A stretch of DNA of 64,000 nucleotides from the NCBI RefSeq assembly GCF_002157625.1, contig NZ_BDMM01000001.1:62001-126000 (forward strand), written 5' to 3'. Positions 56,402-64,000 of the stretch are shown in pieces; the stretch's first letter is position 1, and each line of letters starts with the position of its first letter. The position numbers and the translations under genes are program-made. The notes under the pieces were generated by a model. That model saw only the letters and a list, made by a program, of their open reading frames with translations. It was not told the DNA's origin and did no database searches. The DNA comes from Brevundimonas sp. SH203 (GTDB taxonomy: Bacteria > Pseudomonadota > Alphaproteobacteria > Caulobacterales > Caulobacteraceae).

Positions 56402-56475
56402 TGGGGAATGGTGTAATGGTAACACTACGGTTTTTGGTACCGTCATTCTAGGTTCGAGTCCTAGTTCCCCAGCCA
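56402..56475 (+). tRNA. tRNA-Gln (anticodon TTG), integration target
   Basis: 74 bases. Acceptor stem TGGGGAA/TTCCCCA, anticodon arm ACGGT-TTTTGGT-ACCGT, T-loop GGTTCGAGTCC, and encoded CCA. The integrase gene reads antisense into its 3' part, so this is the attachment site of the element to its right. Confidence 0.96.
56448..56475. mobile_element. Probable left attachment site (attL) in tRNA-Gln
   Basis: The 3' T-arm and acceptor end of the tRNA, shared with the last codons of the integrase gene. The matching attR must lie beyond the right edge, so exact limits are unknown. Confidence 0.55.
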
Positions 56476-57689
56476 TCCGCCCTCACTGCATTCGAGCCGA
56501 TTTCGGCCCCGTTCGAGGGCTTTCGAGTGCTGAGTTTTACACCGGGTTTTACAGTTGCCTGTCTGTTCCGGGCCTCCTCAAGGCGCGCGATCATCCCCAA
56601 ACCGATAGCTTCACCGGTCACATAACGGCGCGCGATCTCCTTCACCCGATTGAGCTCCCAGCCGAGGATGGTGGCGACATCATCGAGTGGCAGACCGGCG
56701 CGAATGAAGTTGGTGGCCGCCGTCCCACGTAGGTCATGAAAGCGGAGACCTTCAAGGCCGGCGCTGGTCTTGCCGGATTTCTTCGCCGCCGCGTCCGCTT
56801 CGAGGCGAGCACGCCCTACGCCGCTGTCCAAACCATTGCCGGGCGGCGTCCAGGGCGTGCCGTCCGAGGATTTGAGGACAGTGGGGCATTCGCCTTTATC
56901 TAAGCCGTCCAGCACCGCCCTGACGTCCTCGGTGATCGGAATGACGACCGTCTTCCGACCTCTGCTCTTTCCCGTTTGCCAAATGATCGCGTGCTCCTTC
57001 ACGGCGGACCAGGGCAGGGCGATCAGGTCGTTCTTGCGCAAGCCTGTAGCGGCTGCGAGGCGGATCGCCGCCGCTACGGGCGGGTCGGCCTGATCCAGCA
57101 CGGCCTCCAGATGGCGGGGCTCCCAGATGATATCCGCTCTGTTCACCTCGTAGAGGCGAGGGAAGTTCACCACCGGATTGCTCGCCAACTTGCCACGATT
57201 GACGGCCCAGTTCAGCACGAGGGACAGGGCGCCGAGAAGTTCGTTCGCAGTCTTGGGCGTCGCGGCGCGCTGATCGCGCCAGTCCAGAAGAAAAGCGCGC
57301 GCCTTGGTCGAAGTCAGGGCCGTCAGCGTCATTTCCCCGAGTTCGGTGCGGACGCGATCCAGCAGCTTGCGCCGATCCAGCTTGGTGCGCGGCGCCAGCG
57401 ATTGATCCGCTCCCATGATCTCAAGATATTGGGTGATGAGGCCGAAGAGCGTGAGGTGATCCACCGGACGTGACCGGGCGGTCTTCCCATATCGATTGTA
57501 AGCGTCGATCGCCGCTGGGGCTTGGCGCGCGACCAGCTGCGCCAGGGCGCGCGGGTTCGAGGCTTTTGCGGCCATGATCTGGGGGCCGCCACGCCAGGCG
57601 TACCAATATTCGAAGACGCGGTGCGCCTTCTTCCGTTTGACCCTATGTAGGCCGGGCAGGACGTGTGTGATTTGAAATGAATCGGGCAA
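56448..57689 (-). CDS. Site-specific tyrosine recombinase (integrase)
   Basis: About 413 residues. Core-binding domain around 75-175 (LFGLITQYLEIMGADQ), catalytic domain with Arg in ATGLRKNDLIALPW, the beta-hairpin lysine region GKSRGRKTVVIP, HDLRGTAATNFI (HxxR), ILGWELN with Trp in place of the second His, and the tyrosine in ARRYVTGEA. All catalytic positions are present. The final codons, GWGTRTRT, are antisense to the tRNA-Gln 3' end. Start is inferred: TTG at 57689, overlapping the end of the excisionase-like gene. Confidence 0.9.
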   Translation of the reverse strand: MPDSFQITHVLPGLHRVKRKKAHRVFEYWYAWRGGPQIMAAKASNPRALAQLVARQAPAAIDAYNRYGKTARSRPVDHLTLFGLITQYLEIMGADQSLAPRTKLDRRKLLDRVRTELGEMTLTALTSTKARAFLLDWRDQRAATPKTANELLGALSLVLNWAVNRGKLASNPVVNFPRLYEVNRADIIWEPRHLEAVLDQADPPVAAAIRLAAATGLRKNDLIALPWSAVKEHAIIWQTGKSRGRKTVVIPITEDVRAVLDGLDKGECPTVLKSSDGTPWTPPGNGLDSGVGRARLEADAAAKKSGKTSAGLEGLRFHDLRGTAATNFIRAGLPLDDVATILGWELNRVKEIARRYVTGEAIGLGMIARLEEARNRQATVKPGVKLSTRKPSNGAEIGSNAVRADGWGTRTRT

Positions 57690-57891
57690 GTTCGACGTCC
57701 GCCGTGTCCATGGAATGAGACGGTGCGGTCTCCAGGCCAGCCAGTTGATCGAGATGCGCGTCGAGGGCCTTGCGGTCATACCGATGCCGCGTCCCGAGTA
57801 CGACGCGCCCAAGACTAAGCTTGCGCACGGTTGTCGCGGGCACGCGAAGATAGGCGGCGGCTTCTTGCTCGGTCAGAAGGCGCGGTTCCAT
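57643..57891 (-). CDS. AlpA/excisionase-like helix-turn-helix protein
   Basis: 82 residues. The MerR-like excisionase pattern is clear at the N-terminus: LLTEQEAAAYLRVPATTVRKL followed by a wing (GTRHRYDRKALDAHLDQL). Such proteins assist excision or activate the integrase. The acidic tail overlaps the integrase's proposed start by 47 bases, so coupling is likely. Confidence 0.75.
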   Translation of the reverse strand: MEPRLLTEQEAAAYLRVPATTVRKLSLGRVVLGTRHRYDRKALDAHLDQLAGLETAPSHSMDTADVELARFISNHTRPARPT

Positions 57892-58190: not shown

Positions 58191-60497
58191 ATGCAGAATG
58201 ATCCGTCGATGGAGAGGGTGCTCCGTATCCTCAGCAACACATCCTCTTTGAAGGATGTCGCCCAGCTTCAAACCAACGCCGCCAACGCCGGCCGCCTGTC
58301 GCCGACTCTGCAGGCCGCGCTCGATGAGCGCGCTGCTGAGTTGGGCTTGGTCTATCTGCGCGAGAAATCCGGCCGCAACTTGGATGGGCTTAGCCCTGCC
58401 GAAGAACGCATCACCCGGGCGGTGTCCGCCTACGTCGGTATCAAGGTGCGTGACGGATCGAACGCCAATCGCACCATCAAAGCGATCCGTGACCATGGTC
58501 TTCTGGAGGCCGCCGAGATCGCGGTCACCAACGCGAAGCCGACGGCTGGATTCCAGACGCTCAACGACGCAGGCCTGGCGGAACTCTCCTACGAACAGAT
58601 CATCGTGGACCATCCCGAGGAGTTTTCGGCCCGGGCGCTGTGGTTCGCCCGGCGAACCTTGGGATTGGACAACGAAACGGCCAAGCCGCCCGCGCGCGGC
58701 TCCACGCCGATCCAGGAGCAGACGGACCAACTTCTCGCCTGGCTTAAAGCCAGGAGGACGCCCGACCGCCGAATTCCGTCCTTCACCAATGCGGAGGCTT
58801 CCGCAGGATTGGGCTGGGATGATCTGCAGATCTTCGGGCGCGCTTACGGCAATCTCCAATCACGGTTGGATTTCGCCTGCTACCGGTGTGGTCTGCCGCC
58901 TCTTGGACTGACCGCGGAGCGGCCGTTCGACCGTGCGTGGTCCCAGGAAGGGCGGACCTGGGCCTTTCCTGTCTCCACGATGCAACTCGCAGCCCAGACG
59001 CGTCCCTGGACTGATCAAGATTTTCGGGCCATCGGCGCTGAAGCGCGCGCGCTCCCGGGTCAGGCCCATGTGGTCTGGCGACGGGAGCTTGCTGAATCTG
59101 AAACCCGCTTTCGCGCCTGGGCGGAAGGGGTGATGTCTTGGCAGGGCGTCGGGCCGCAGGAGGAGACAGACGCGGTCGAGCCTACGGGCCGGAATCCGGC
59201 TTGGACCCGGGATGAGTTGATCCTAGCGCTGGACCTCTATTGAACGCTCAAAGGCGCCGCCTTTGGCAAAAGCGACGATCGAATTCTGGAACTGTCCTCG
59301 GTCCTCTCGGCCTTGGCGACGACGCGAGGCGTGTCCGGGGAGGCGGACTTCCGCAACGCAAACGGCGTCTACATGAAGCTGATGAACTTCAGGGCGTCAG
59401 ACCCCGAGTACGCCGCCGAGGGCAAGGCCGGGCTGAGCCGAGGCAATCAGCTGGAATCAGTGATCTGGAGCGAGTTTTTCGGCGATCGTCAGAAGCTTCA
59501 AGCGGCCGCTGAAGCCATTCGAGAGTCCATCCAAACGCCGCTGCCCGAGGCTGGGGCCGCCCCTTATTGGGTGTTCGTTTGCAATCCGAAACGGTGGGCC
59601 ATCGATCGATTCTTGGAGCAGGGCGAAGCTCGTGACACTTGGGGCGTCCGGCCGTCGGACCGAATGCGCTTCGCTCCAGGGCAACTCGGCGTCGTGCGCG
59701 TCGGCGTAGACCGAGGCACCTCGGCGGAACGAGAGGGGCGGCCGGCGTTGGAGGCGGGAATCTACGCCCTCGTCGAGATCGAGAGCGAGGCGTTCGAAGG
59801 CTCGGGCGCCTCTGACGCCTTTTGGGCGGAAGGCGGGGGAAGAGCGTCGGGTTGGCCGACGGTGAAAGTCCGCTATCTCCAGACCTTCAGCGACCGGCCC
59901 TTGACCATCACGCGCTTGCGCGAAGAGGCGCCGGCTTTGTCGCCCTTGCTGCTCAATGGCTTTCAAGCGGCTTCATTTCCAATCCCCGAACCCGACTTTC
60001 GGCGACTGCTCGACCTATTGGGGACGTCAGCGGAGACGGTGGTCGGCGAGATAGCCGTAACAGACACGCTCGAAGCCTTGGCCAGGCTTGAAGAGAAATT
60101 CCGTGACGCCTGTCCTGAGGTCAAGGAGCGCGTGAGCCGGAGCATCGAACGTGGCCCGGTGGGCGCTTTGGTTAAGAAGCTCAACGGCTACAAATGTCAG
60201 ATTTGCCAAGTGCTGGGACGCGATCCGATCAGCTTCTTGAAGCCGTCGGGGGAGCCCTATGTGGAAGCACACCATGTGATGCCCGTGTCGGCCGGCCAAG
60301 CCGGCTCGCTCGGGGCGTCGAACATTCTGACGGCGTGCGCCACGCACCATCGTCAGCTTCACTACGGCCAGGCATCGGTTTCGATCACCGCGACAGCCTT
60401 TGACGTCACCCTGGATGGGAAGACTGTTCGGGTCGGTCGGCCGATCCTGGACGGACCTGGTAAATCGCCGACGGCGCAGAAAATGCCCGTGGCCTGA
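58191..60497 (+). pseudogene. Interrupted EVE-HNH endonuclease gene (in-frame TGA at 59241-59243)
   Basis: One continuous frame of 769 codons apart from a TGA at codon 351. Upstream part: an uncharacterised domain (about 1-180, LSPAEERITRAVSAYVGIKV), a linker, then RNPAWTRDELILALDLY just before the stop. After it the same frame continues TLKGAAFGKSDDRILELSS and through the motif FRNANGVYMKLMNFR, i.e. the standard N-terminal module of HNH restriction proteins is cut in two. An EVE domain (WVFVCNPKRWAIDRF to GIYALVEIE) and a C-terminal HNH nuclease (CQIC, YVEAHHVMPVS, NILTACATHHRQLHYG) follow. Intact relatives are predicted modified-DNA-dependent nucleases. Confidence 0.75.
59313..60497 (+). 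CDS. EVE-HNH portion as it could be translated alone
   Basis: 394 codons from the first ATG after the internal stop. It keeps the whole EVE domain (about 90-230) and the HNH domain (about 290-385) but lacks the WTRDELILALDLY end of the N-terminal module. No ribosome-binding site is seen before the ATG. If translated it might bind modified DNA and cleave; more likely it is a dead fragment of the gene described above. Confidence 0.5.
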   Translation: MATTRGVSGEADFRNANGVYMKLMNFRASDPEYAAEGKAGLSRGNQLESVIWSEFFGDRQKLQAAAEAIRESIQTPLPEAGAAPYWVFVCNPKRWAIDRFLEQGEARDTWGVRPSDRMRFAPGQLGVVRVGVDRGTSAEREGRPALEAGIYALVEIESEAFEGSGASDAFWAEGGGRASGWPTVKVRYLQTFSDRPLTITRLREEAPALSPLLLNGFQAASFPIPEPDFRRLLDLLGTSAETVVGEIAVTDTLEALARLEEKFRDACPEVKERVSRSIERGPVGALVKKLNGYKCQICQVLGRDPISFLKPSGEPYVEAHHVMPVSAGQAGSLGASNILTACATHHRQLHYGQASVSITATAFDVTLDGKTVRVGRPILDGPGKSPTAQKMPVA

Positions 60498-60540: not shown

Positions 60541-61929
60541 TCAGTCTTCCTCGTCAGGGGCGATCGGCTGATTGCGTTTTTCGGCCATGACCCTAGCGGC
60601 GTTCTTTTGAACGAAGGCGTGCAAACTCGCCGGTCCGGTCTGAAGATAGGCTTTCACGGCCGCGCCATTGACCAGGACGAATTGCAGGTGGGTGTCGGCC
60701 GTGATCTCTCGGGCGTAATTCACGGCCTCACGGGAGAAGTCACCGGGGGTGACCACCATGACCACGTGAGACTTGGCGTAGATCGCCAGGCCGACCTCCT
60801 TGGCGACGTCGCTGAGGCTGACGCGGCTCTTCACGCATTTGCACTGGATGTTCCAGCGCGAGAAGAGGAGTTGCTTGCCTTCCGCGGTCAGGTCGACCTC
60901 GGCATAGGCCGTGTCCCGGCTCCGCTGGCGGAACGAGCGCGGATCAAGCCCCAGATCGATCAGCATGCGAAGCGCCAGGAGCTCCAACCCCAAGCCGCGA
61001 TCGTTTGGCGATGCGCTGTTCAGCAGCCGCTGGATCTCGGGGCGCGGCAGATCGATCTTCTCGCGCAGATCGGCCGGCACGACCGCATCGAAATCCGGGA
61101 CGATCGCGCTGAAGGGGATGTCGAGGAGTTTGGCGGCGGCCGACACCTGGCCGCTTTTCGCGCCCCGCCCCTCCGAGCGAGCGCCCAGGCTCAACCACCC
61201 GCCGGCTTCGAGCGGCCGCAGGACCTTCTTGCTCAGTTGGTCCTCATCGAACTGATGCGGATAATCCCTCAGGCATTCGTCGCTCACGACCTTCGCCGCG
61301 ATGGATTTCGTCGGCTCCACCTCGATCAGACGACGCAGGACCTGAAGAAAGATTTGTTGCTCCAAGGGAAGGGCGCTCAGCTCCGCCCGTTCACTGGCCG
61401 AAATGCCGAGCACCCGTTTCATCGCCTCATCGATCGGCGCCAGGTTCTCGCTCTTGTCGAGAAGACCGGCTTCGGCGAACCAGTTGGCGAGGGTCGTGTG
61501 GTCCGTCGTCGCGCGCGAGAGGCGTTCGATGCCCAAGAACTCGAGCTCGCGCTTGAGGCTGTCCTTGCCGGCGTGCTCTCCGCGTACGTTCAGGGATCGG
61601 GCCGCCTCGATCACCGACATTCCATTGCGGGTTTCGACCACATGGACGGCCAGTCTCTCGGCGCCTTCACGGGGTGTCAGCGCGGAGGCGATGAACTCGC
61701 CCGCCTCGGTTAGGGTCATCGACGGGCGATCGATCAGGCCCAAGGTGTTCAGCGTGGCGGTGACGTTCGTGCGGGCCCGCTTGTTATCCGCGCCGCCGAA
61801 GAAGGCATCCGCCCAGGCTTTGACCACGGCGTCGAAATCGGGAGCATATTGCTTGAACAGCAGCAGCGGTTTGCGAACATCGCCGATGATCTTGGGCGAA
61901 AAGTCATTGAATGACGGAAGCCGCTTCAT
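60541..61929 (-). CDS. Restriction endonuclease with winged-helix N-terminus and Mrr-like nuclease domain
   Basis: 462 residues. The first 280 contain at least two winged-helix-like segments (RTNVTATLNTLGLIDR; DQLSKKVLRPLEAGGWLSL), probably for DNA recognition. The C-terminal third has a PD-(D/E)xK core of Mrr type: LGLELLALRMLIDLGL, AEVDLTAEG, IQCKCVKS (QxK), and AKSHVVMVVTPGDFS. The ATG overlaps the stop of the upstream methyltransferase as ATGA, so it is the nuclease of that system. The exact recognition sequence is unknown. Confidence 0.8.
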   Translation of the reverse strand: MKRLPSFNDFSPKIIGDVRKPLLLFKQYAPDFDAVVKAWADAFFGGADNKRARTNVTATLNTLGLIDRPSMTLTEAGEFIASALTPREGAERLAVHVVETRNGMSVIEAARSLNVRGEHAGKDSLKRELEFLGIERLSRATTDHTTLANWFAEAGLLDKSENLAPIDEAMKRVLGISASERAELSALPLEQQIFLQVLRRLIEVEPTKSIAAKVVSDECLRDYPHQFDEDQLSKKVLRPLEAGGWLSLGARSEGRGAKSGQVSAAAKLLDIPFSAIVPDFDAVVPADLREKIDLPRPEIQRLLNSASPNDRGLGLELLALRMLIDLGLDPRSFRQRSRDTAYAEVDLTAEGKQLLFSRWNIQCKCVKSRVSLSDVAKEVGLAIYAKSHVVMVVTPGDFSREAVNYAREITADTHLQFVLVNGAAVKAYLQTGPASLHAFVQKNAARVMAEKRNQPIAPDEED

Positions 61930-62993
61930 GCCGCCGCCTCCAATCGGCCGCCCAAATGATCCGCAAGCTGGCGACCGACGGCCTCAGCCAGCCGAGGAGG
62001 CACAGCATTGCCGATCTGACGCCACTGCTGTTCGAGCGTGCCCGTCAGGGTGAAGGCGTCCGGAAAGGTCTGCAGGCGTTTGATCTCTTCGATGCGCAAG
62101 ATGCGATTGCGCCAGTGGAAGGGGCCCATGTTGTTGGAGCGTCGCGCCTGGATGGTCCACGACGGCAGATCGGGGCTCAGCTTCAACAAGAACGACCAGT
62201 AGCGGCCGCGCCATTTGAACACGGGATGGGGGTGGCCGCGCTTTTCGGTGAAGAAGAGGTAGTTGTCGCCTGGCGGCACCTGCTTCAGCAGGTCGTGGTG
62301 ACGTCCGCCGGCGAAATGCCCCTTGTCGCAGGCCGCTTCATCCGTATCCAAATCCGCAAGAACGTCGCCCGCCGTGCGCCAGGCCGGCAGGTCCACGCCA
62401 TCTTGGGCATGGGTGGGCTCGGGCAGATCGATCCGGCCCTCCAGCGATCCGACGACGAAACAGCGCTCGCGGATCTGAGGCACGCCGAAGTCCGCGGCGT
62501 TCAGCACGCCACAAGTGACCTTGTAGCCGAGCTTTTCGGCGCGCGTGACGATTGTCTCCAGCGCGTCCCGGTGAACCTTGTAGGCGAGCCCCTTGACGTT
62601 CTCCAAGATGAACGTCCGTGGGCGAAACCATTCCAGGACCTTCAGGTAGCCGTTGATCGTCTCCCAGCCATTCGGATCGTCCAATGCCCGCGGCATGTTC
62701 TGGCGATAGAAGCGGCTTTTGGAGAACGGGGGGCAGGGGGGACCGCCCGCCACCAGGTCCAGGTCGTCGGCGTCCGGTCCGAGTTGCTCGCGCAAACCCT
62801 GGCGGGTCAGGGCGCCGATCCGCTCGACGATGAAAGGGGTCTTGCCGAAATTGGCGGCGTAGGTGGATGCGCACAATCGCTCGGCGTCCGTCGCCAAGCG
62901 GGTCTGGAAGCCTGCCTGCTCCAACCCCAGATCGAGTCCGCCGCAGCCGGTGAATAGGCTGACCGCTTTATAGGGGCGCGTGATCCCGTTCAT
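61926..62993 (-). CDS. DNA cytosine-C5 methyltransferase (inner copy)
   Basis: 355 residues with complete C5-methyltransferase motifs: I SLFTGCGGLDLGLEQAGF, IV GGPPCPPFSKS with the catalytic cysteine, VI LENVKGL, VIII PQIRERCFVVG, a target-recognition region (about 225-300), and IX-X LQTFPDAF and QIGNAVPP. The ATG of MNGITRPYK overlaps the stop of the outer methyltransferase as ATGA. The recognition region resembles that of its neighbour, including the shared GPFHW. Confidence 0.93.
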   Translation of the reverse strand: MNGITRPYKAVSLFTGCGGLDLGLEQAGFQTRLATDAERLCASTYAANFGKTPFIVERIGALTRQGLREQLGPDADDLDLVAGGPPCPPFSKSRFYRQNMPRALDDPNGWETINGYLKVLEWFRPRTFILENVKGLAYKVHRDALETIVTRAEKLGYKVTCGVLNAADFGVPQIRERCFVVGSLEGRIDLPEPTHAQDGVDLPAWRTAGDVLADLDTDEAACDKGHFAGGRHHDLLKQVPPGDNYLFFTEKRGHPHPVFKWRGRYWSFLLKLSPDLPSWTIQARRSNNMGPFHWRNRILRIEEIKRLQTFPDAFTLTGTLEQQWRQIGNAVPPRLAEAVGRQLADHLGGRLEAAA

Positions 62994-64000
62994 GCGACCG
63001 TCTTCGCCACCGCGCGCACCATCACCTCCGCAAGGGGCGGAGGAACGGCGTTGCCGACCTGGCGAACGCGGTCCCGCCGAGACCCCGCCCATTCATACCC
63101 GCGAGGAAAGCCCTGCAAAGCCGCCATCTCTACGGTGCGAAGTCGACGGCTGGTCCAATGGAAGGGGCCCGTCCAGGGGCCAGGGGAAGCCGCCAGGGTC
63201 CAAGAGGGCCGCTCCGGCGCGAGCTTGAGCAGGAAGTTCCAAAAGCGGGTTTCGGTCACGAAGCTCGGCTCGGGATGTCCGGCCCAGGCGGTATGGGCCT
63301 TGTAGTTGCTTCCCGGCGGCACCGTCCGGAGATGCTCGGCCCAACGGCCGGAGATCACTTCTTCAGGTTCGAAGAAGCGGTCATCATCGAAATCTTCAAG
63401 CGCTTCACCCGCCGTGAGCGCGGGCTTCAGGTCTATTCTCGGGTCAGCCCTGACGGCGTGGGTCGGAGCCGGCGCAGTCGGCTTGGATTTACGCGATCCC
63501 AATAGGAAGACGCGCTCACGCGTCTGCGCCACGCCATACTCGGCGGCGTTTGCGGTGACCTCGGTCACCTCATAACCCGCCTTGAGCGCCGCGCTGCGAA
63601 AACCTTCGAGGACCGGTCGGTTGCGAGGGTGCTTGATCGAGGGGACGTTCTCGAACACGAAGCCATCGGCGTTGGCCTCGAAGATCAGGCGCCAGAACTC
63701 CTCGACCAGGGTACGACGATCGTCCGGGCGAGGCTCGGTCGGCGCAGGCGGCCTGGCCATCTGTTCGCCCGCCGCGCGGGCCCTGCGGTAACGCGACTCT
63801 TCGCCTTCTTCGACCCAGTAGGCGGCCTTGGAAAAAGGCTGGCACGGGGCGCCGCCGACCACGATCAGCGGATCGCCGGGCCGCAAATTCGCTGCCTGAC
63901 GCAAGTCATCTCCCGTGAGATCCGCGACATCCGCTTTAAGCACCGCGCCGTGGTATTTCGGATTGCGGCGCATCGTGTCGCAAGCGACGCCGTCGAGTTC
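62990..64000 (-). CDS. DNA cytosine-C5 methyltransferase (outer copy, 5' end outside window)
   Basis: The frame is open to the right edge, beginning with ELDGVACDTMRRNPKYHG, so motif I lies outside. Present: IV GGAPCQPFSKA with the catalytic cysteine, VI FENVPSI, VIII AQTRERVFLLG, target-recognition region, IX-X LQGFPRGYEW and QVGNAVPP. Between IV and VI is a charged insertion (VEEGEESRYRRARAAGEQ). It is paralogous with the inner copy and translated just before it. Confidence 0.92.
   Translation of the reverse strand, partial: ELDGVACDTMRRNPKYHGAVLKADVADLTGDDLRQAANLRPGDPLIVVGGAPCQPFSKAAYWVEEGEESRYRRARAAGEQMARPPAPTEPRPDDRRTLVEEFWRLIFEANADGFVFENVPSIKHPRNRPVLEGFRSAALKAGYEVTEVTANAAEYGVAQTRERVFLLGSRKSKPTAPAPTHAVRADPRIDLKPALTAGEALEDFDDDRFFEPEEVISGRWAEHLRTVPPGSNYKAHTAWAGHPEPSFVTETRFWNFLLKLAPERPSWTLAASPGPWTGPFHWTSRRLRTVEMAALQGFPRGYEWAGSRRDRVRQVGNAVPPPLAEVMVRAVAKTVA

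Follow-up and report, generated by a model that had tools for sequence, protein, structure and literature searches.

The window, which is the whole stretch of 64,000 nucleotides of Brevundimonas sp. SH203 that was analysed, carries a gene for a putative restriction endonuclease that is split by one in-frame TGA and lies near two cytosine methyltransferase genes. This locus raises the question of whether the nuclease has been lost, and whether the methyltransferases have anything to do with the loss. The findings in this work favour, with a probability of about 0.73, the recent interruption of a gene that encoded a large modification-dependent (type IV) restriction endonuclease of the EVE-HNH kind and is carried on a ~34-kb tRNA-Gln element that is losing genes.

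The split frame and the domains it encodes

The frame at 58191-60497 (plus strand) has 768 codons and a single internal stop, the TGA at 59241-59243 (codon 351). Both sides of the TGA share one frame, and the reading frame itself thus confirms what the sequence-only reading had claimed. The number of stops expected from base composition in these 768 codons is 21.8 and the probability of one stop or fewer is 6e-9, therefore the frame is a gene. The first possible ATG is located at 58191. The second ATG (58209) aligns with the starts of relatives and may be the translation start, judging from the alignment.

The 5' part of the gene (58209-59243, plus strand; 350 codons when counted from 58191) covers a helical N-terminal region and the beginning of a helical module, as delimited from the ORF list, the alignment and the model of an intact relative. 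The 3' part (59244-60497, plus strand) consists of the remaining module, an EVE domain, a linker, an HNH domain and the stop. The domain order is therefore helical N-terminal region, helical module, EVE and EcoKMcrA-like HNH. About 330 residues lie upstream of the helical module, and the sole Pfam match there is under its cut-off. The helical module (59202-59540, plus strand, approximate borders) is common to other HNH proteins according to the alignment, tblastn and the PADLOC HNH models, and the TGA lies inside it. The EVE domain (59565-60014, plus strand) was identified by Pfam PF01878 (E 5.1e-8; 33.5 bits against a cut-off of 23) at residues 108-257 of the 3' part and by the fold match of the intact relative. 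The HNH nuclease core (60195-60377, plus strand) is on the same chain as the EVE domain and C-terminal to it. It was identified by EcoKMcrA (PDB 6ghc, E 1e-6) and the PADLOC model mREase_IV (3.2e-8); the Pfam matches HNH_2 (16.3 bits) and HNH (16 bits) on the 3' part are both under their cut-offs. No NCBIfam model scored above cut-off for the two parts of the split gene or for two intact relatives. An N-terminal HNH module had been thought to straddle the TGA. A module does straddle it, but this module is helical and the HNH domain itself is C-terminal.

The structure model of the intact relative L009 (mean pLDDT 71, pTM 0.39, 7 sequences) is helical to about residue 443, followed by an EVE fold and then the HNH part. 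The EVE fold was matched by Foldseek (6.6e-4) and has Z scores of 11-13 to EVE and THYN1 structures. The EVE-HNH endonuclease VcaM4I (PDB 6yex) aligned to residues 453-750 of the model with a Z score of 11.4 over 214 residues and an rmsd of 12.3 Å, therefore the two structures place their domains differently relative to each other, or the model is poor in this respect. No match was found in the viral fold library at E <= 0.001. No sequence match to VcaM4I by which its pocket residues could be mapped was found at E <= 10. The EVE match (E 5e-8), the EcoKMcrA HNH match (E 1e-6) and the alignment of the L009 model with VcaM4I over both domains together support the EVE-HNH, type IV-like identity that had been proposed.

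By analogy with VcaM4I, the EVE domain of the intact enzyme would bind modified cytosine and a dimeric HNH would cut, and the enzyme is predicted to cleave only modified DNA. In the L009 model the TGA maps near residue 350, at the end of helix 339-351, which is predicted to be the first of the module. Since the TGA is upstream of EVE and HNH, termination there removes both. Translation would stop past the helical N-terminal region and no nuclease would be made.

Intact relatives and the age of the stop

One genome per each of 84,980 species was searched by a pattern-based scan, which was not exhaustive, and 39 loci were obtained. A single uninterrupted frame through the stop position is found in seven of these loci (L002, L004-L007, L009 and L003), although the N-terminal region of L003 is shortened. 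In the family of the window, the 3' part was matched in 7/390 genomes and the full length over both parts in 2/390, namely the window's own genome and G150. The latter belongs to the same genus, and its copy, which is intact, has identities of 60% and 64% in the two parts. A TGA was also counted within the matches of G076 and G164, where it may be the normal stop codon of the gene. Larger carrier searches of 195, 111 and 397 genomes matched 5, 3 and 3 genomes (2, 2 and 3 of them at full length or nearly so) and contributed only G467, and the IMG/VR search (9 loci) contributed contig L070. Neither the C part nor the G150 protein was covered to 80% by any plasmid record, and a distant DNA search of plasmid records with 7.7 kb covered 6% at most.

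Nine relatives (G150, L002, L004, L005, L006, L007, L009, G467 and L070) have the full-length uninterrupted reading frame of a VcaM4I-type enzyme, which the window's copy lacks owing to the TGA at 59241. The intact relatives align across the position of the TGA. Alignment with intact homologues had been suggested as a check on the codon that the TGA replaced, and the residue at this column is Leu in five, Phe in two and Met in one of the eight aligned relatives (L003 included), with Cys or Sec in none of the eight.

The interrupted copy departs from the invariant columns of its relatives at 4/71 positions in the N part and 6/118 in the C part. Intact L009 has equal counts, and those of the remaining intact copies range from 1 to 5 (N) and from 2 to 5 (C), with the distant L007 (34/102 and 21/133) as the exception. 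The sequences thus suggest no clear relaxation of the interrupted copy. Since its divergence does not exceed that of an intact copy, either the stop arose recently, or it is an artefact, or selection still acts on the protein. The missing decay at invariant columns is therefore not peculiar to a recent break, as it is also expected if the protein is still made or if the TGA is a sequence error.

The intact relatives, at ~760 residues, represent a larger EVE-HNH architecture that merits tests with phages whose DNA is modified. The frame of one of them (L005, 8942-11776) continues intact for ~180 codons past the HNH end with no stop, and the other relatives are without that sequence.

The helical module was found without EVE by tblastn in 34 further fetched loci, four of which also have the N-terminal region. 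Six of the 34 were translated, and all six are HNH proteins with no match to the EVE part. L071 is an EVE-HNH protein with a different N-terminus, L008 is a short EVE-HNH protein, and L010 has neither module nor EVE. These EVE-less and rearranged relatives indicate that the family is modular and the EVE domain optional. L012, L013, L015 and L018 consist of the N-terminal region and helical module with a different HNH end and no match to the EVE part; the sensor may have been swapped within the nuclease family, as far as their sequences suggest. A relative without the EVE part on Sinorhizobium meliloti plasmid pAK76 (L068, 4957-6881) is split into two overlapping ORFs.

A decaying integrative element

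The split gene and the restriction-modification cassette M1-M2-R are located on an integrative element of ~34 kb at tRNA-Gln with a repeat at both ends. The integration site is tRNA-Gln (ttg) at 56402-56475 (plus strand; ARAGORN). The left attachment repeat of 34 + 16 bases is at 56432-56481 (plus strand; exact-match scan). The right copy, which is one base shorter, is at 90419-90467 counted from the window start, ~34 kb rightward and outside the window, and the recurring right-hand repeat is the 3' part of tRNA-Gln. The tyrosine recombinase (integrase) of the element is at 56448-57812 (minus strand; Pfam Phage_integrase 2.3e-13). A small HTH_17 ORF at 57643-57891 (minus strand; Pfam 5.1e-6, 27.1 bits against a cut-off of 27) overlaps the 5' end of the integrase ORF and is a putative excisionase-like gene. 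The integrase beside tRNA-Gln and the direct repeats that flank the element characterise it as tRNA-targeted.

The part of the element outside the window contains Nmad2, MazG_C, HMUDK_hel, DCD, RepB/ParB, ArdC, HEPN/nucleotidyltransferase and Fic genes. Nmad2, MazG/MazG_C, HMUDK_hel and dCTP-deaminase-like genes form a cluster at L049 10918-14729 (64918-68729 from the window start). This set suggests nucleotide or DNA base modification, and no PADLOC model matched these genes at E <= 0.001.

Two other genes of the element are broken. A serine recombinase gene (L049, 15882-17451) is frameshifted, with the Resolvase domain in one frame and the Recombinase domain in the other. A MazG_C-like gene (L050, 7157-8326), which shares 28% identity with the nearby intact gene of this kind, is interrupted by one TAG at position 81,700 relative to the window start.

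The element thus bears three lesions, namely a TGA (EVE-HNH), a TAG (MazG_C-like) and a frameshift (serine recombinase). General decay of the element is the simplest cause of the TGA, and an absence of selection on a mobile element would be the likeliest reason for the interruption.

The same lesions bear on whether the TGA is a sequencing or assembly error in a gene that is really intact, which we consider the least probable of the alternatives. The assembly is a draft of 16 contigs and the split gene has no clear decay elsewhere, as such an error would have it. However, substitution errors are uncommon in well-covered draft assemblies, which would count against an error if this draft is one of them. 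The three broken genes are also clustered on one element, and the stops flagged outside the element looked like ordinary gene junctions by eye. The coding-potential scan of 110 kb that flagged them has limited sensitivity, as its thresholds missed 59241 and it is blind to frameshifts.

The lesions also bear on whether the split gene still works, either by low-level read-through of the TGA or by a downstream restart that gives a short EVE-HNH protein, and this too is improbable. The absence of clear relaxation at invariant columns is consistent with a working gene. The TGA at 59241 is followed by A, a context in which termination at TGA is comparatively leaky in E. coli. Short EVE-HNH proteins do exist; since VcaM4I has 309 residues and L008 is short, a downstream start could still yield an active EVE-HNH core, which counts against a complete break. 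However, the remaining lesions, a TAG and a frameshift, have nothing specific to TGA, and therefore the three lesions together argue against TGA-specific recoding. No suppressor tRNA was found on the element and its right flank.

Recoding of the UGA at 59241, including as selenocysteine, was considered and rejected as unlikely. The search for tRNA-Sec gave 11 matches, two of which were checked, and ARAGORN identifies the only one above the cut-off (49.2 bits against 47) as tRNA-Ser (tga). In the initial pass, 150 of 755 candidates were scored. The stop column of the relatives is also not Cys.

A downstream restart was likewise rejected for want of a good start. The downstream start sites are weak, with no strong ribosome-binding site at the seven in-frame starts tested up to 59613 (best -6.0, whereas a value of -8.0 is reached by 5% of random sites). 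A ribosome-binding site is also missing at the 58191 start, therefore its absence downstream is weak evidence.

Methyltransferases, conflict and known systems

The nearest neighbour of the split gene is R, a restriction endonuclease gene with an Mrr_cat domain (60541-61929, minus strand; Pfam 3.5e-8), and 43 bp separate the ends of the two genes. R is 72-73% identical in G083 and G348. It is followed by M2, a C5 cytosine methyltransferase gene (61926-62993, minus strand; Pfam 3.1e-53) whose longest ORF starts at 63092 and whose start was placed at 62993, the probable one judging from relatives. M1, also a C5 cytosine methyltransferase gene (minus strand), extends from 62990 to 64000 and past the window edge to 64153; its in-window part matched Pfam at 2e-34 and the complete ORF in L049 has 387 aa. 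M1, M2 and R overlap by ~4 bases, and the cassette is uninterrupted and convergent with the split gene. The two C5 methyltransferases noted in the sequence-only reading are indeed present, but they are not 0.5 kb away, as M2 ends at 61926 (1.4 kb) and M1 at 62990 (2.5 kb), with R intervening. The cassette contains PF00145 twice and Mrr_cat, and the same order is found in G083 and G348 at 72-81% identity. M1-M2-R is thus a predicted Type II R-M system, in which R and M would act on the same sequence. Among plasmid records, M2 has far relatives only (<60% identical).

A different reason for the loss would be a conflict in which the intact nuclease cuts host DNA methylated by M1 and M2, and the cassette is kept only with a broken nuclease. 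We consider this unlikely, although it ranks first among the alternatives. The EVE domain is of the type that binds 5mC and 5hmC in VcaM4I, as the relevant passages of PMC7897488 describe. The same passages report that 5hmC DNA is cut faster than 5mC DNA, therefore attack on 5mC host DNA is not to be presumed. The cassette R is found in 3/390 genomes of the family (the window's own, G083 and G348), the full-length nuclease in 2/390 and both in 1/390. The sole genome found with nuclease and cassette therefore carries a broken copy, and G083 and G348 have the cassette with no match to the EVE-HNH nuclease at E <= 1e-20. No genome with both an intact copy and M1-M2-R was found. However, the rarity of nuclease and cassette alone predicts zero overlap; the window's own genome is counted in both the 3/390 and the 2/390.

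C5 methyltransferases were counted by PF00145 at E <= 1e-10, with weaker matches uncounted. The 3.1-Mb genome of the window has six C5 methyltransferase genes (7 matches, two of which are M1 pieces). With this model, 48 sampled genomes of the family had between 0 and 4 matches each, and 47 of the 48 have at least one; four genomes with partial matches were deliberately included in the 48.

Against the six genes in the window's genome, none is found in 7/9 genomes with an unsplit copy (eight at full length and L003), which would fit the conflict. However, G150, the congener, and G394 each have an intact copy together with one C5 methyltransferase. Coexistence of an intact copy with both methyltransferases had been named as evidence against a conflict; an intact copy with a C5 methyltransferase pair (E <= 1e-10) occurs in 0/9 genomes with an unsplit copy, and no overlap was expected given the rarity.

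Carriers of the Rhizobiales type have a C5 methyltransferase in 1/8 genomes, compared with 29/75 in a background of two genera that does not match all carriers, and this deficit is not significant (one-sided p 0.14). The background comprises 15/39 in the genus of G394 (L006, Bradyrhizobium) and 14/36 in the genus of G390 (L002, Methylobacterium), with genomes drawn at even steps, genus inferred and matched genomes avoided. An anti-association of carriers with C5 methyltransferases, which first appeared as 6/8 carriers with none, was rejected as it failed against this background.

The findings also do not bear out the suggestion that the nuclease was lost as the price for retaining both methyltransferases. 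The same island has two other broken genes without such a motive. McrBC genes are often linked to methyltransferases, and the authors of PMC2614495, in its passages on this linkage, expect those methyltransferases not to make McrBC targets. General decay of the element is preferred as the cause, and relief from cutting M1/M2-methylated DNA may have helped the loss of the nuclease.

It is doubtful that the element has been caught resolving an internal epigenetic conflict, in which a 5mC-attacking EVE-HNH nuclease beside the 5mC-making M1-M2-R was disarmed by one nonsense mutation and the element persisted on that account. If so, mobile elements can harbour defence genes that are hostile to one another and inactivate one of them by point mutation, and genes like the split one would mark past conflicts that are searchable genome-wide. 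Otherwise, the split gene is a type IV gene broken recently, and it illustrates that the linkage of a modification-dependent nuclease and methyltransferases is by itself no evidence of conflict.

Both methyltransferases of LlaJI are C5 enzymes. The LlaJI R-M system, as outlined in parts of PMC12707154 and PMC8989522, is similar to M1-M2-R in that two methyltransferases and a restriction function belong to one system. However, LlaJI uses McrBC-like subunits, whereas M1-M2-R has a single Mrr_cat protein. The PcaRCI/PcaRCII pair is similar to the window's genome in that a mobile C5-methyltransferase R-M system and a methylation-dependent HNH nuclease occur in one genome. It also provides a precedent for conflict, as M.PcaRCI silences the HNH enzyme PcaRCII by promoter methylation according to the sections of PMC8989522 on this pair. 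The window's nuclease is instead interrupted, with conflict only a candidate cause; if that cause were true, the nonsense mutation of the element would be the mutational counterpart of the methylation-silenced PcaRCII.

EcoKMcrA is similar to the split gene in its HNH core (E 1e-6, profile 5e-8), and the match is confined to this core. VcaM4I, as described in the corresponding parts of PMC7897488, has the same arrangement of an EVE sensor followed by an HNH nuclease. It differs in having only 309 residues, whereas the family of the split gene adds ~330 N-terminal residues and the helical module, and the window's copy is interrupted. Overall, the locus is best read as a recent interruption in a gene for an enzyme of a known type, sited on a mobile element that is itself decaying.
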